42,218 nucleotides of DNA from a virus. The stretch lies in the IMG/VR virus record IMGVR_UViG_3300009034_000092, positions 1-42,218 of that record. The stretch is one strand, 5' to 3'. Shown here in pieces: positions 1 to 42,218 of this stretch. Under the pieces are notes generated by a model. That model was not told the origin of the DNA. It searched no databases and saw only the letters and a list, made by a program, of their open reading frames with translations. Every line of letters begins with the position of its first letter. Position 1 is the first letter of the stretch. The position numbers and the translations under genes are program-made.

Positions 1-119
1 ATCTATGATGACACGAAGTATCAAGTTGCGGCCTATGCTCATCTCTGTACTGCGGAATACTACCAGCCACCAGACAGAGTAGCGATTCTGCGCCTTGACA
101 AAGAGACGGGGGCCTTTGA
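1..119. repeat. Terminal overlap repeat, left copy
   Basis: Bases 1-119 are identical to 42100-42218. The repeat lies inside one open reading frame that reads correctly through the join. The simplest reading is an assembly overlap from a circular or circularly permuted genome, not a physical direct terminal repeat. Confidence 0.95.
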
Positions 120-3309: not shown

Positions 3310-3797
3310 ACACCGAGACAGCTAGTGCTCCCGAACTGCTGCTGTATCTGGCGGGGCTGAAGAAGGAGTGCCCTGACCATCCCAAAGATGTCCTTTCTGC
3401 CGATGCCCAAGATTGGGAATGTAGAACTTGCGAGAACACAGGCGAAGTCCCTAAGTACCCTGAGTTGCGGGAGGAGTGTCCCCGATGTGCTGGTAAGGGC
3501 CAATGGTACACGGGCTACAAGGATGTGTCATGTATCCAATGCGGCGGTGATGTCTTTTTCCATAGAGTGGGCCGTGGCTGGGTGCCCATCTCCAACCCGA
3601 TGGAGACGGTGCTGAGGCTAGCGAGGAAGACCCACTTTATACACTTGAAGTCAGGTATTGATTACGTAGTAGTGAACATGCGGCGCTATGGTAGGTCCAA
3701 CTCGGAAGCGAAACTCGGAGCAGACGAATCTCCTGAATTGGCCGTACTCCAGGCCTTTGCCAAGGCGCAGAAGGAGAGCGATGCCAACAGGGATTGA
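3306..3797 (+). CDS. DnaJ-type zinc-ribbon protein, 163 aa
   Basis: Starts at a GTG that overlaps the preceding stop. Residues 36-80 carry three CxxC pairs (C39/C42, C58/C61, C76/C79) with Gly spacing like the DnaJ zinc-finger repeats. The rest is a beta-rich domain and an acidic tail. A second protein with the same plan lies at 40072, suggesting paralogues. Function unknown; DnaJ J-domain sequence is absent, so it is not a co-chaperone. Its last 17 bases overlap the next gene. Confidence 0.65.
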   Translation: MNTETASAPELLLYLAGLKKECPDHPKDVLSADAQDWECRTCENTGEVPKYPELREECPRCAGKGQWYTGYKDVSCIQCGGDVFFHRVGRGWVPISNPMETVLRLARKTHFIHLKSGIDYVVVNMRRYGRSNSEAKLGADESPELAVLQAFAKAQKESDANRD

Positions 3798-4602
3798 ATG
3801 GACAGAAGAGACTCTAAACCCGTGGGTAGGCTGTACGCCTGTCAGTCCTGGGTGCGCTAACTGCTATGCCCGAAGACTGGTAGAAGGACGCCTGAAGCAC
3901 CGATACCCTGGCGGGTTCGGCAAGCTGCACTTCCACATGGAGCGGCTGGAGCAACTGAAGAAGTGGAACAGGCCCCGGATGGTGTTCATGTGGAGCATGA
4001 GCGACCCGTTCCATCCTGACGTGCCACGGGCCAGACTCAAGGATTCATTCACGGCCATGGGGCTAAACGAAGAGCACGTTTTCCAACTTCTCACAAAGCG
4101 ACCAGAACGCATGGTGGAATTCGCTAAAGAGCATGAGGCAGGATGGTGGCCACCCAACGTATGGGCTGGCGTGTCCGTCGAGAACCAGGAGTGGGCCGAC
4201 AAGAGGCTGCCCTTACTAGCCCAAGTGCCCGCGAAGGTACGGTTCGTGTCTCTGGAGCCGCTGCTGGGGCCTGTGGACTTGAGTTGGTGGTTAATGCCGC
4301 ACGATGAACATAAGCGACCTGGCTTGAAACCTGCTATAGAGACTGTGACTGGTGGTAGTTACAGGATGCTAGATTGGGTCATCTTCGGCTTCGAGAGTGG
4401 CCCTAACGCTAGGGCTGGTGATCTCCAATGGATACGGGACGGGCTTGCTCAATGTCGAGAGGCGGGTGTGCCAGCCTTTGTGAAGCAACTTGGTACAAGG
4501 TGGGCGAAAGAACAGGAAGAGGCCGACTACAAAGGTGCTGTGATGGACTACTGGCCCTATGAATTCTGGGTGAGAGAGTGGCCCTTGAGGAGGCCTGAAT
4601 GA
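3781..4602 (+). CDS. DUF5131 / phage Gp37-Gp68 family protein
   Basis: 273 residues, close to family size. The hallmark is the N-terminal three-cysteine motif C18-x6-C25-x2-C28 after NPWVGC, with the family strings LTKRPERM, WAGVSVEN and FVSLEPLLG. The three cysteines and TIM-barrel-like layout suggest a radical SAM-like iron-sulfur protein, but the substrate is not established. In bacteria this family is often paired with the TcmP partner protein; none is seen here. It lies in a coupled run with a GNAT, a DNA methyltransferase and a DUF4406 protein, which may hint at nucleotide or DNA modification. ATG at 3781 is used; an in-frame start at 3688 would overlap the zinc-ribbon gene. Confidence 0.85.
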   Translation: MPTGIEWTEETLNPWVGCTPVSPGCANCYARRLVEGRLKHRYPGGFGKLHFHMERLEQLKKWNRPRMVFMWSMSDPFHPDVPRARLKDSFTAMGLNEEHVFQLLTKRPERMVEFAKEHEAGWWPPNVWAGVSVENQEWADKRLPLLAQVPAKVRFVSLEPLLGPVDLSWWLMPHDEHKRPGLKPAIETVTGGSYRMLDWVIFGFESGPNARAGDLQWIRDGLAQCREAGVPAFVKQLGTRWAKEQEEADYKGAVMDYWPYEFWVREWPLRRPE

Positions 4603-5111: not shown

Positions 5112-5146
5112 ACAAGCTCACCCTGAGATGGGAGAGGCCTGAATGA
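5108..5146 (+). CDS. Twelve-residue mini-ORF before methyltransferase
   Basis: ATG at 5108 opens a 12-residue frame whose stop overlaps the methyltransferase start (ATGA at 5143). It contains the AGAGGCCTGAATGA junction that also occurs at the DUF5131/GNAT boundary. It may only serve to deliver ribosomes to the methyltransferase start. No support beyond position. Confidence 0.25.
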   Translation: MNKLTLRWERPE

Positions 5147-6570
5147 GGCTTGCCCCGGACAAGAGGCTCAGGGACAGGCTCTTTGTGCCCGAGTCGTATT
5201 CTCACCCAGCTAAGGGACACCTGGGGCTGTGGGAAGCCATCATCCAGAAGTACACGAAGCCTGGGGACTGGATTGTGGATCCGATGGCCGGCGTGGGAAG
5301 TACCCTCATAGCCGCATTGATGGGCCGCCACGTGATATGCGTGGAGCTGGAGCAGCACTTCATTGAGCCTATGAAGGCTAGTTGGGAGAAGATGAGGCAG
5401 ACGCCGATGCTGGGCCACGAGTTGGGGAAGGTGCTGATACTGAGGGGGGACGCTAGGTGCCTGCCCTTCGGCTCAGCTCAGGACAAGCCGCTGGGGAACG
5501 GGGCAGACTGCGTAGTGAGTTCGCCTCCGTACGCCAATCGTTTAAGAGATGAAGGAGACGACCAGCACCGTCATTGGCCCGTGAAAGATCCCTCAAAATA
5601 CATGACACGTTACACCCGCCCCCAGGGGAGCGCAGACGGGATTATCACCTCACCACCTTGGGAAGATAGCATCACGGCTGAACGGCTAGAGGTGCCCCCT
5701 AGTGCTGAGCAAAAGGACAGGCAAGCTAACTGGGTCAAGCAAGGCAAGGGGCCAGCGTATCAGGGCTACACCCGCCCTGCCAGCCCTGAGCGGCGTCCTG
5801 AGCCTGACGAAGGGCCTAGGGTGGACGCCGTGGTCAGTAGCCCACCTTACGCTGAGGGTTTGGGACACGACGTTGGTAGAGACAGGGAAATTGACCAGAG
5901 AAAGAAACTTTATAGTGCGAGAGGACAGGCTGCCTATGCTGGGCCCAGCACACAGAACATAGGAAATCTCCGAGGGGCGGCCTACTGGGACGCCATGAAG
6001 TTGGTGTACCAGGAGTGCCACCGAGTCCTTAAATCTGAGGGAATCATGGTGCTGGTGCTAAAGGGCTTCACGCGAGATGGTAAGTACGTTGACCTTCCTT
6101 CAGATACGAAAACTCTCGCGGAAAGTCTAGGCTTCAAGCTGTTCGACAGGTGGGCCAGGGAGTTGTGGTCTCTTTCTTTCTGGAGAATTTTGCAACGGCG
6201 CAGGGACCCAGAGGCTTTCGATGAGAGGCTGAGGTTTGAGGAAGTTTTGGCTTTCAGGAAGCTGGAGGGGGAAGGCTCGGTGGATGCAGTCGTTACCTCA
6301 CCGCCTTACGAAGCACTACGGCAGGATGGTGGGGTTAATGATCTCTCTCTGACTAAACGAGACTTTCATAGTTACACAGATGGCATTACTACAAAAGGGC
6401 ATGAATCTCGGCAAAGGCACACCCGTCCCCGTGGCTCTATCGACAGCATCGTTACGAGTCCACCTTACGAGGAAGGCTTGGGTCACGGGGCACCTATCGC
6501 TGACCCAGTGGACGTGAAGAAGAAGCTCTACAGCGGCATGGGACGATATGGCTACACCCGCCGAGGCTGA
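5143..6570 (+). CDS. Site-specific DNA methyltransferase with five SPP(Y/W) motifs
   Basis: 475 residues. Motif I is VDPMAGVGST (45-54) with the SAM-binding acidic strand CVELE (66-70). The catalytic motif IV SPPY is at 127-130, giving an amino-methyltransferase (N6-A or N4-C). Later core parts are CHRVLKSEGIMVLVLKG (292-308) and FEEVLAFRK (365-373). Unusually, SPP(Y/W) recurs at 170, 233, 386 and 439, the last two after the normal end of the catalytic core. Most copies follow a (Y/H)TRP string, and the gene stops just after another GYTR, as if cut at the start of a further repeat. Two short palindromic elements lie in frame at 5464 and 5797. Likely protects phage DNA; target site unknown. 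Confidence 0.85.
   Translation: MRLAPDKRLRDRLFVPESYSHPAKGHLGLWEAIIQKYTKPGDWIVDPMAGVGSTLIAALMGRHVICVELEQHFIEPMKASWEKMRQTPMLGHELGKVLILRGDARCLPFGSAQDKPLGNGADCVVSSPPYANRLRDEGDDQHRHWPVKDPSKYMTRYTRPQGSADGIITSPPWEDSITAERLEVPPSAEQKDRQANWVKQGKGPAYQGYTRPASPERRPEPDEGPRVDAVVSSPPYAEGLGHDVGRDREIDQRKKLYSARGQAAYAGPSTQNIGNLRGAAYWDAMKLVYQECHRVLKSEGIMVLVLKGFTRDGKYVDLPSDTKTLAESLGFKLFDRWARELWSLSFWRILQRRRDPEAFDERLRFEEVLAFRKLEGEGSVDAVVTSPPYEALRQDGGVNDLSLTKRDFHSYTDGITTKGHESRQRHTRPRGSIDSIVTSPPYEEGLGHGAPIADPVDVKKKLYSGMGRYGYTRRG
5464..5488 (+). repeat. Palindromic CCCTTCG..GCTCAGG element, in frame
   Basis: The stretch begins CCCTTCGGCTCAG and runs into CTCAGGACAAGC. It encodes the residues PFGSAQDKP inside the methyltransferase. 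This motif type is a dispersed mini-element in many environmental genomes, notably Chloroflexota, and reads as FGSAQDK-like peptides when it lands in genes. A reverse-orientation relative lies at 5797-5814. Confidence 0.55.
5797..5814 (-). repeat. Palindromic element, inverted copy
   Basis: CCTGAGCCTGACGAAGGG; its reverse complement CCCTTCGTCAGGCTCAGG shares both ends with the element at 5464-5488. The two form an imperfect inverted pair that frames about 310 bases of the methyltransferase gene, containing SPP motifs 1 and 2. Confidence 0.5.
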
Positions 6571-6587: not shown

Positions 6588-6893
6588 ATGAGAGTCTACA
6601 TAGCAGGTCCATACACCAAGGGCGATGTGGCAGTCAACGTCAAAAAGGCAATCTTGGCCGCTGCGGAAGTCGCCAACATGGGCCACACGCCGTATCTACC
6701 CCACCTGACTCATTTCTGGCATCTTGTTGCCCCCCAACCGTGGGAGTTCTGGATCAAACTCGATGCGGAATGGCTGAAGGTCTGTGATTGTGTCCTTCGG
6801 CTAGATGGGGAAAGCAAAGGGGCTGATATGGAGGTTGAGTTAGCAAAGAGTCTGGGTAAGCCAGTCTTTGGTTCGATGATGGAGCTAGCATGA
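6588..6893 (+). CDS. DUF4406 / nucleoside 2-deoxyribosyltransferase-like protein
   Basis: 101 residues, typical length. Begins MRVYIAGPYTKGD, the glycine-rich nucleotide-binding loop of this Rossmann-like family, and has the later CDCVLRLDGESKGADMEVELAKSLGKPV strand-helix-strand with the conserved SxGADxE signature. The family includes enzymes that cleave nucleoside glycosidic bonds, but the substrate of phage DUF4406 proteins is unknown. Follows the methyltransferase by 17 bases. A role in nucleotide pool change or base modification is plausible by context. Confidence 0.8.
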   Translation: MRVYIAGPYTKGDVAVNVKKAILAAAEVANMGHTPYLPHLTHFWHLVAPQPWEFWIKLDAEWLKVCDCVLRLDGESKGADMEVELAKSLGKPVFGSMMELA

Positions 6894-36752: not shown

Positions 36753-37991
36753 GTGCTCTCTACAATCGAACTTGTAGATGCTTTTCTGGCGGCCAAGCGG
36801 AGTGCGGGACGGGCGGTTAGTACATTAGAATCCTATGAATTGCATCTCAAGAAATTCACCGAAGAACATCCCTCTTTGCCATGTGAACCCGAACCTATTG
36901 AGGCGTTCCTGACCAAGATACCTGGCAGACGCTACCGTTGGAACCACTATGTAACTCTACGTACGTTCTACAACTGGGTTGAAAAACGCCAGTCTTTGCC
37001 CAATCCCATGCCACGGGTCGAGAGTCCAAAGAACCACCTTACAGCACCTTACTATCTCGAACCAGAAGACGTGGTGAAACTCCTGAATCACCCAGACCAC
37101 CCTGACCGTGACCGGGCGCTACTGTGGCTTCTGGCCGACACTGGCATGAGGATAGGGGAAGCCCACTCCATCTCAGCCTCAAGCCTCAAGGATGATATTG
37201 TCATAGTCGATGGCAAGACTGGGACTCGTTTTGTTCCAGTCAGCCCCATCGTTATCGGTATGCTCAAGGCGATTGCAGAAGAGGGCAAGAAGTATGTAGG
37301 TGGCACCATCTGGCTCGGGCCACAAGGCCCGTTGAGGCTGGATACTCTCGGGAAAGTAGTGCGTAAAGCATTCAAGCGAGCTGGCTTTCGGGGGGCGTTG
37401 ATGTCCGCTCACCGTCTACGCCATACCTTTGCGACCTTGTGGGAGGGGTCGGAAACAGAAGGCCGTGCCATCGGGGGCTGGAAGACGCCTCAGATGTGGC
37501 AAAGATACCATCATTTGCGTATAATCAGGATGATCACTGAGCATCAGCGTTACAGTCCGCTAAGTCTGCTACGGATTGCGGACCCAAAGGCCGCGAGTTC
37601 GAGTCTCGCCGAGCGCGCCAAGTTTGAAAGGATGGTGCGCTTGATGGTAAAATCAAGGGACCGAAGGTTCTGGTTCAGCCCCGAAGAACTGGCGTATATA
37701 CGTAGGCAACTCATGGAGAACGGCCACTCAGAAGAGGAGAGCAAACGGGTGGTGAATGCCATACAGCCGCCGCCGAAGCCTATCACCATCGAGGCTGCCG
37801 CAAAGAAGAAGCAGTGCAGTTGGGAGAGAATTCGCAAGTGGGTGCAACGTGGCCACTTAGACAAAATTGGTGTTCAAAGAAACGGTCAACCTGGCCGACG
37901 GAGAGTTCTGATTGACGAACACGAGCTTGACGCTCTTATTGCGAACCCCCCGAAGACAGGCAGACCTAAGAAGCGTCGCACTAAGCGTTGA
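36753..37991 (+). CDS. int: Tyrosine recombinase fused to excisionase-like HTH, attP inside
   Basis: 412 residues. N-terminal SAM-like DNA-binding domain (1-90), catalytic domain about 95-268 with R133 (TGMRIGE), K155, H220-x-x-R223, W243 (GGWK) and Tyr252 (QRYHH). Residues 275-289 are encoded by the tRNA-like attachment sequence. The C-terminal part (290-412) ends in a MerR/excisionase-like helix-turn-helix (about 333-388: ITIEAAAKKKQ, RIRKWVQRGHL, RRRVLIDEHELDALI) and a basic tail. In-frame ATGs at 37632 and 37644 lie just after the site, behind GAAAGGA. GTG start at 36753; the ATG two bases earlier is out of frame. It should catalyse integration into a tRNA-Arg gene and would be split by it. 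Confidence 0.85.
   Translation: MLSTIELVDAFLAAKRSAGRAVSTLESYELHLKKFTEEHPSLPCEPEPIEAFLTKIPGRRYRWNHYVTLRTFYNWVEKRQSLPNPMPRVESPKNHLTAPYYLEPEDVVKLLNHPDHPDRDRALLWLLADTGMRIGEAHSISASSLKDDIVIVDGKTGTRFVPVSPIVIGMLKAIAEEGKKYVGGTIWLGPQGPLRLDTLGKVVRKAFKRAGFRGALMSAHRLRHTFATLWEGSETEGRAIGGWKTPQMWQRYHHLRIIRMITEHQRYSPLSLLRIADPKAASSSLAERAKFERMVRLMVKSRDRRFWFSPEELAYIRRQLMENGHSEEESKRVVNAIQPPPKPITIEAAAKKKQCSWERIRKWVQRGHLDKIGVQRNGQPGRRRVLIDEHELDALIANPPKTGRPKKRRTKR
37576..37620 (+). other. attP: attP core: 3' half of a tRNA-Arg inside int
   Basis: The 45 bases read as anticodon loop TTGCGGA (U33, anticodon GCG), 3' anticodon strand CCCAA, variable loop AGGCC (C48), T stem GCGAG, T loop TTCGAGT, T stem CTCGC, acceptor strand CGAGCGC, discriminator G, CCA. 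The 5' half is absent (no TTGGG partner strand or D arm), as expected for an attachment core and not for a gene. GTCCGC (37555-37560) and GCGGAC (37578-37583) form an inverted pair around the likely crossover. Confidence 0.85.
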
Positions 37992-38009: not shown

Positions 38010-38264
38010 CTAGGGTGCACCAGGCAACATCTCGCAGGCGATACCGTCTCGGTCAGGGTCTAGCCGATGCGGGTCATAATCAGGTCCACCTGCTGCTTCA
38101 AAGAAAGTTTGGGCTTGCCGCCAAGTTCCGAAGTCTCGGCAATTCGTCTCTGACATGAAACTGTCATAGCGGAATTTAATGGTGTCGCCGCAGCCGACAC
38201 TGAGAACCAGCGCTAGCAGACCGATACCGATGAGAACTGCCCAATGATTCTGCTGCTCTTTCAT
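38010..38264 (-). CDS. Excalibur-domain lipoprotein
   Basis: 84 residues, opposite strand to int. Hydrophobic signal (8-23) ends SVGC with a lipobox-like Cys25. The second half is an Excalibur domain: C42-RDF, AQTFFEAAG and the calcium-binding loop D69-x-D71-x-D73-G-I-A-C77-E78, with the usual disulfide pair. It would be a surface-anchored calcium-binding protein. Position beside the attachment site, own promoter and opposite strand mark it as a lysogenic-conversion gene, perhaps for superinfection exclusion. Confidence 0.8.
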   Translation of the reverse strand: MKEQQNHWAVLIGIGLLALVLSVGCGDTIKFRYDSFMSETNCRDFGTWRQAQTFFEAAGGPDYDPHRLDPDRDGIACEMLPGAP

Positions 38265-39865: not shown

Positions 39866-40075
39866 ATGGGAGTGAGACTGGATAACTCAACCATTGATGG
39901 CTGGGTCAAGGCGTATCAGGGTATCGACTTTCGGCCAGCGAGAGAGGCAGCCGACGAGCAGCTACAGAAAGTCATTGATGACCTGAGAAGGCGGGCAAAG
40001 GCAGACCTGAACGGGGATGCCTGCATAACGCTGGCGAACGTGGCCCGAGAGTACGAAGCGGAGTTCCAGCGATGA
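39866..40075 (+). CDS. Hypothetical helical protein, 69 aa
   Basis: ATG behind GAGGAGGTAAG. Charged helices (REAADEQLQKVIDDLRRRAKAD). Stop overlaps the next ATG. Not recognised. Confidence 0.55.
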   Translation: MGVRLDNSTIDGWVKAYQGIDFRPAREAADEQLQKVIDDLRRRAKADLNGDACITLANVAREYEAEFQR

Positions 40076-40548
40076 GCGCAGTTGAACAGCTCCAGAGGTT
40101 GCCTTGCCACATGTGCAAAGGTACGTTGCATCTTCACGCTGATGCAGATTTGCCCGACCAAGAGACATACATGGTGTATGACTGCCCCTCCTGCCAAGAG
40201 AACAAGCTTCCCACGGGCCTGGAGTTCCCGGGGCTGACCCAATGCTGTCCCGTTAGAGTGCTCAGCAAAAGCCAAGGTCGCTGGACTCATGGCTTTGGCG
40301 ACCAGAATTGTCCGCATTGCAAGGGCACAGGCCGAGTGCCGAAGTCCGAGCCAGAGATGCTGTGGGCGCTAGTACACCAACCTGGATTCAGGATTCTTGA
40401 ACACTACGTACCAACAGGGATCGAGCCAGACCTCCCTATTAGCCAAGGCAAGGTGTATGGGGCTATGTGGGCGAACACTATCTGGGGATACGGCGATACC
40501 CCCCTTGAAGCCCTGGCCAGCGCGGTGCTGAAAGGAGAAGTGAAGTGA
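40072..40548 (+). CDS. DnaJ-type zinc-ribbon protein, 158 aa
   Basis: Has CHMCKGT (12-18), CPSC (38-41), and CPHCKGTGR (80-88), plus a Cys pair near 58, arranged like the protein at 3306. The C-terminal ends of the two also share an acidic helix ending (LEALASAVLKG here, LAVLQAFAKA there). Probably a paralogue. No J domain. Function unknown. Confidence 0.6.
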   Translation: MSAVEQLQRLPCHMCKGTLHLHADADLPDQETYMVYDCPSCQENKLPTGLEFPGLTQCCPVRVLSKSQGRWTHGFGDQNCPHCKGTGRVPKSEPEMLWALVHQPGFRILEHYVPTGIEPDLPISQGKVYGAMWANTIWGYGDTPLEALASAVLKGEVK

Positions 40549-41664: not shown

Positions 41665-42218
41665 ATGGTAGCGACAACGAAAATCCATACCGTGTATAAG
41701 CTCGCTGACGGCACCAAGGTTCCCTCTGTCACGACCATTCTGGGGATTCTCGCCAAGCCTGCGCTGATCCACTGGGCTTGGCAGTGCGGCGTGGACGGGC
41801 TGGACTACCGGAAGGTGCGGGACAAGGCGGCGGACATCGGAACCATAGCCCATTACCTCATCGAGTGCGAGATCAAGGGAGAGAAGCCCGACCTGACTCC
41901 CTTCCCGCCAGAGGACCTGGACAAGGCCGAGAACGCCTATCTTGCCTTCTTGGAGTGGAGGGACAGCCACAAGCTACAAACAGTTGCCTCAGAAGTCCAA
42001 CTCGTGTGTGAAGATATGGCCTTTGGTGGCACCCTTGACTGGATAGCACACGACGATGACCGAAACCTTTGGGTGATTGACTTCAAGACTGCCAAGGCTA
42101 TCTATGATGACACGAAGTATCAAGTTGCGGCCTATGCTCATCTCTGTACTGCGGAATACTACCAGCCACCAGACAGAGTAGCGATTCTGCGCCTTGACAA
42201 AGAGACGGGGGCCTTTGA
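41665..42218 (+). CDS. PD-(D/E)XK (RecB/Cas4-like) nuclease, N-terminal part
   Basis: First 184 residues; the rest is at 1-204. Motifs are H63 (IAHYL), E110, G-T-L-D125, V-I-D139-F-K141 and Q153-x3-Y157, the full active site of the RecB-type exonuclease branch. ATG at 41665 lies behind GGAGGAGTGAAG. No iron-sulfur cysteine cluster of true Cas4 is seen. Probably the exonuclease of a phage recombination pathway with the possible ssDNA-binding protein at 689. Confidence 0.88.
   Translation, partial: MVATTKIHTVYKLADGTKVPSVTTILGILAKPALIHWAWQCGVDGLDYRKVRDKAADIGTIAHYLIECEIKGEKPDLTPFPPEDLDKAENAYLAFLEWRDSHKLQTVASEVQLVCEDMAFGGTLDWIAHDDDRNLWVIDFKTAKAIYDDTKYQVAAYAHLCTAEYYQPPDRVAILRLDKETGAF
42100..42218. 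repeat. Terminal overlap repeat, right copy
   Basis: Identical to bases 1-119. Removing one copy gives a closed 42,099-bp circle with an unbroken nuclease gene across the join. Confidence 0.95.

Follow-up and report, generated by a model that had tools for sequence, protein, structure and literature searches.

Genome and organization of the integrase locus

The integrase gene (int) lies at 36753-37991 on the plus strand of the window, which is the whole 42,218-nt stretch of DNA analysed. Its reading frame passes through a candidate attP core and continues into a segment that encodes a putative DNA-binding domain. The first 119 bases of the window are the same as its last 119 bases, and the genome is complete. 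The features of the window are as follows.

1..119 (no strand): direct terminal repeat with its identical copy at 42100-42218; marks a free-phage genome as complete, either circular or terminally redundant
36753..37991 (+): int, tyrosine integrase ORF of 412 aa with a GTG start, running through the attP candidate; from the open frame and profile matches
37149..37508 (+): catalytic residues R133, K155, H220-x-x-R223, W243 and Y252, all upstream of attP; from alignment with three relatives
37576..37620 (+): attP core candidate within the int frame, a tRNA-Arg(GCG) 3' half that spans the anticodon loop through CCA; from sequence, scanner, shuffles and a hybrid tRNA
37621..37991 (+): part of int behind attP, residues 290-412, which would be detached by integration; absent from about 70 related integrases
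37632..37991 (+): possible ORF from which a prophage could make the detached domain separately; start codons in frame at 37632, 37644, 37713 (ATG) and 37749 (GTG)
37782..37952 (+): predicted excisionase/MerR-type winged helix-turn-helix (HTH), residues about 344-400; from profile, fold and pairwise signals

Profile searches identified genes for the terminase, portal, major head protein and SU10-type adaptor of a tailed phage, and many genes are preceded by strong Shine-Dalgarno sites. These two features together indicate that the host is most likely bacterial. Records related through the major capsid protein and the terminase were also inspected. A related integrase was found in only 4 of 50 records, and the three of these four that were read lacked a comparable C-terminal extension, so the locus was not viewable in close kin. 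No tRNA genes were found in seven related records.

Several other features of the genome were observed. Directly behind int, the gene at 38010-38264 (-) encodes a small predicted secreted or lipoprotein-like protein, which matched only PHROGs of unknown function. Its C-terminal D-x-D-x-DG-I-ACE motif resembles the Excalibur calcium-binding domain. A 158-aa protein at 40072-40548 (+) shows a weak likeness to the central zinc domain of DnaJ (6.3e-5, under the cut-off). A DUF5131 protein (PF07505, 8.6e-70) is encoded at 3688-4602 (+), near genes for a DNA methyltransferase (5143-6570) and a nucleoside 2-deoxyribosyltransferase-like protein (6588-6893); the three possibly form a DNA or nucleotide modification cluster. 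The early region carries a 23-nt direct repeat (ATAGTCGAGAGGAAAGGACAATA) at 1408-1430 and 2092-2114, 96% identical, possibly a shared operator or ribosome-binding leader.

int contains an in-frame tRNA-Arg 3' half

The 45 bases at 37576-37620 (+) are TTGCGGACCCAAAGGCCGCGAGTTCGAGTCTCGCCGAGCGCGCCA. The initial annotation had stated that they obey tRNA rules from the anticodon loop to CCA, and all of the features were indeed present. The 7-nt anticodon loop TTGCGGA (T33, anticodon GCG, G37, A38) is followed by the 39-43 strand CCCAA and a 5-nt variable region. The T-arm has 5/5 pairs around TTCGAGT, and the 3' end consists of the acceptor strand CGAGCGC, G73 and CCA. The core starts at base 2 of codon 275 and ends at base 1 of codon 290 of the ORF at 36753-37991, within which the tRNA half is in frame.

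The genome was scanned for CCA-ended tRNA 3' halves, and 37576-37620 was the sole find. The same scanner found zero halves in 200 dinucleotide shuffles of the genome (8.4 Mb), and as a positive control it recovered the half contained in the int gene of Myxococcus phage Mx8 (L133:6442-6486, minus strand). ARAGORN called a tRNA-Arg(gcg) with all 7 acceptor pairs intact when a Woykebacteria tRNA-Arg supplied the 5' half and the phage the 3' half. The Rfam tRNA model did not match the core, as may be expected because the core is half a gene. These data confirm that 37576-37620 is a genuine tRNA-Arg(GCG) 3' half. From the layout, we infer that it is the attP at which recombination occurs.

The catalytic integrase is complete before the core

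Residues 101-255 of the integrase match PF00589 (5.6e-15, above the cut-off), and residues 6-288 match the phrog_1 integrase (3.1e-33). By NCBIfam the protein is XerA/XerC/XerD-like, with scores below the curated cut-offs. The PF00589 match together with the R-K-HxxR-(H/W)-Y residues identifies it as a tyrosine recombinase. The initial annotation had placed the site C-terminal to the catalytic tyrosine with the catalytic half left whole; this holds, as Y252 and all other catalytic residues lie upstream of the core. A single-sequence structure model of the whole integrase was of too poor quality for use.

In the alignment, the related integrases terminate near '...YSPxxRL', which corresponds to about residue 273, where the core begins. 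Nearly all of about 70 further relatives end within 50 residues of this position, with one continuing for 97, and none of them contains a tRNA half within the reading frame. In two relatives, L176 and L180, int is followed on the same strand by a tRNA half some 125 bases farther downstream, past the stop codon and a hairpin. A tRNA half downstream of int, as at these two loci, is the usual layout. Because the relatives end at the start of the core and the halves of L176 and L180 lie downstream, the phage keeps the ordinary int-attP order, but the frame continues through attP for 120 more residues. No relative of int or of the extension with the same fusion was found among viral contigs, phages and plasmids, and the fusion is known from one genome alone.

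The extension encodes a putative excisionase/MerR-type domain

The codon-position GC of the extension (0.56/0.43/0.59) matches that of int (0.59/0.44/0.56), so the extension looks coding. Several independent signals, each weak but all concordant, suggest that residues about 344-400 form an excisionase/MerR-type winged HTH. At the profile level, residues 344-400 matched phrog_66 'excisionase and transcriptional regulator' (1.8e-5) and the MerR-like phrog_2474 (5.3e-5). The matches to HTH_17 (0.0022, 18.6 of 27 bits) and TIGR01764 (0.038, 14.4 of 28.8 bits) were below the Pfam and NCBIfam cut-offs, respectively. A single-sequence model of the domain folded as a helix-turn-helix, a beta hairpin and a helix (H-H-E-E-H) with a mean pLDDT of 65. 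The best PDB folds by Foldseek were BldC and the Xis of mycobacteriophage Pukovnik (4j2n), with prob 0.80-0.90 and E about 0.1, and several viral folds named 'Excise' were returned from BFVD. A pairwise comparison of the extension with the MerR-like Uoi of Mx8 gave 30% (E 2e-4 for a single comparison). No other excisionase-like protein was found among roughly 40 ORFs scanned. The relatives' ending where the core begins and the excisionase/MerR-type nature suggested for the detached part add to the earlier reading of this locus.

The GTG at 37749 has AGGAG at a spacing of 9, and its product would be 80 aa, a typical Xis size. Similar Shine-Dalgarno sites are carried by 9 of 343 internal ATG/GTG codons in the genes checked. 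A promoter-like site at 37624-37653 matches at 10/12 with a TG before the -10, where shuffles predict 1.0 per region. The promoter-like site and the in-frame starts, both close to background, could allow separate expression of the HTH part.

Search for the host tRNA and for integration

A host tRNA-Arg gene sharing the 45-mer had been expected from the initial annotation. An exact copy was absent from 84,980 genomes and from the viral contigs searched. With a loose pattern, eight tRNA genes were found in eight of the 84,980 genomes and none in viral contigs. The best of the eight is identical to the phage 3' half at 41/45 bases.

L106 262-338 (-): tRNA-Arg of Candidatus Woykebacteria, anticodon GCG; from the loose-pattern scan, 41/45

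In most bacteria, the tRNA-Arg anticodon is ACG rather than GCG. A host tRNA with ACG or CCG that shares the core only from C35 on was considered and rejected: the best match itself carries GCG, and GCG is thus plausible for the host. Hosts with a tRNA-Arg GCG, as in Woykebacteria, may be candidates for the phage. Patescibacteria were searched as the host clade. In 380 genomes of the phylum there was no match with 3 or fewer mismatches, and 280 genomes of the class returned only the Woykebacteria genome already found. No prophage, attL or attR was seen at the core in the genomes searched.

Comparison with known systems

The layout was compared with known integrases that extend across attP, for which Mx8 and SSV were named in the Islander study (PMC4383910). 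In Mx8, attP is inside int past the catalytic tyrosine. The integrated gene has a new 3' end and encodes a new C-terminus, and the enzyme stays active with altered specificity (PMC6070905). The present phage resembles Mx8 (and Mx9) in being a bacterial phage with a tRNA-half attP within the int ORF, past the catalytic tyrosine (core codons 275-290, Tyr 252). In our scan, the Mx8 half covers about codons 412-427 on the strand opposite to int, whereas here it is on the int strand. BLASTP gave no significant similarity to Mx8 Int; the layout is shared and the close family is not. The tail lost by Mx8 Int has no Pfam domain, while here the lost part is a putative HTH domain. Mx8 encodes its MerR-like Uoi separately, in a gene upstream of int; in the present phage a putative domain of this kind is fused behind attP.

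In SSV-type archaeal integrases, the attP tRNA half is within int, the gene is split, and it is the separated Int(C) half that contains the catalytic domain (PMC8371274). The initial annotation had likened the locus to this type. The attP-in-int layout is common to both and the gene would split in both, but the catalytic half stays whole here, whereas it is the catalytic Int(C) that is cut off in SSV. Mx8 is therefore the proper precedent, and the earlier interpretation is partly supported once it is redirected from SSV to Mx8. The SSV-type domain Phage_integr_3 (PF16795) is absent from int, where only PF00589 was matched at E <= 0.001. No archaeal features were seen except the GCG anticodon, which the tRNA of a CPR bacterium (Woykebacteria) also has. 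Self-disrupting recombinases have been reviewed as exclusively archaeal (PMC8371274); this is countered by phage Mx8 with its attP inside int.

Two further systems are related by principle. In the integration-dependent immunity of mycobacteriophages (BPs and relatives), attP at a tRNA is inside the repressor ORF, and integration shortens the C-terminus of the repressor and alters its behaviour (PMC4557955, PMC9262239). The C-terminal shortening is the same as here, but the repressor rather than the integrase is split. Engineered serine integrase-RDF fusions hold recombinase and directionality factor in one polypeptide (PMC5737554). Those fusions are artificial and of the serine family; here a natural tyrosine integrase carries a putative Xis-like domain, with attP at the joint.

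Interpretation

The best explanation, which we regard as probable, is that attP lies at a seam that joins a complete catalytic integrase (residues 1 to ~273) to an additional DNA-binding domain of the excisionase/MerR type at the C-terminus, and that integration splits the gene there. In the free phage, the 412-aa fusion would be made. Recombination with the host tRNA-Arg gene would rebuild the tRNA with the phage 3' half, and one end of the prophage would carry this tRNA with the HTH part immediately after it. The opposite end would hold int up to codon 290, its last codons being the displaced tRNA half, followed by host DNA. Since all catalytic residues precede the core, the prophage integrase would be catalytically whole and essentially full-length, minus the HTH domain. 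We infer with good confidence that the gene is split on integration, and the initial annotation had likewise foreseen separation of the C-terminus. The loss of the HTH domain may change the activity or the direction of Int, by which integration would reset its own enzyme. The detached domain may also be produced separately as a small directionality factor. An excisionase role for it, in which attL x attR excision would be raised and integration inhibited, is hypothetical. A stricter form of this model, a natural Int-Xis fusion jointed at the recombination site, would have integration separate the two and rewire the control of direction, with Xis possibly supplied by read-through from the rebuilt tRNA; we hold it as tentative and rather unlikely as stated. 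Points that count against the best explanation are the 45-mer found in no genome searched, the lack of any observed prophage, attL or attR, the single genome, the HTH scores below curated cut-offs and the medium-confidence model.

The fusion might instead be incidental: an ordinary int-attP-xis module would have lost the int stop, and the frame would enter a small HTH gene without any function of the fusion itself. The core comes directly after the usual end of integrases, the int frame stays open across the tRNA half, and possible internal starts lie behind the core, among them the GTG at 37749 with AGGAG, which would yield the protein of typical Xis size. An in-frame fusion could arise by chance: by our estimate, the odds that two adjacent genes share the frame and that the 25-codon seam is free of stops are roughly 1 in 10. 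However, the fusion is necessarily made whenever int is translated, as no stop intervenes, and the internal start signals are near background. We give incidental read-through a real but minority place among the explanations.

Alternatively, the 45-mer could be a relic or the attP of a former host, with the phage now integrating elsewhere or no longer and int staying intact. This would agree with the exact 45-mer being in none of the 84,980 genomes and with no prophage being found, but the host species may be missing from the genome collections. The half is also the sole one in the genome and, although it is coding as well, it has no flaw at any position, CCA and T-stem included. A relic would have drifted and is thus improbable. 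A suicidal integrase of the SSV type, in which integration destroys the enzyme and locks the element in place, would likewise have its attP within int, in the form of a 40-50 bp tRNA half (PMC8371274). Its catalytic domain would sit in the separated Int(C), however, while all catalytic residues here precede the core. The enzyme here is also a phage integrase of XerA/C/D-like type, and the phage that carries it is tailed and has strong Shine-Dalgarno sites. These features make the suicidal type very improbable.

The seam model with gene splitting is therefore preferred. The layout has one known bacterial precedent, Mx8, and what is new here, to our knowledge, is which domain is lost. The scanner for tRNA halves is usable for finding further attP-spanning integrases. 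Together with Mx8, the phage indicates that integrase genes crossing attP exist in bacterial phages too, and its own integrase is unrelated to that of Mx8. Should the detached domain be a directionality factor, hardly any simpler control of recombination direction could be conceived, as the enzyme encoded after the reaction would differ from the one encoded before it, and the gene would be a natural counterpart to the engineered integrase-RDF fusions.
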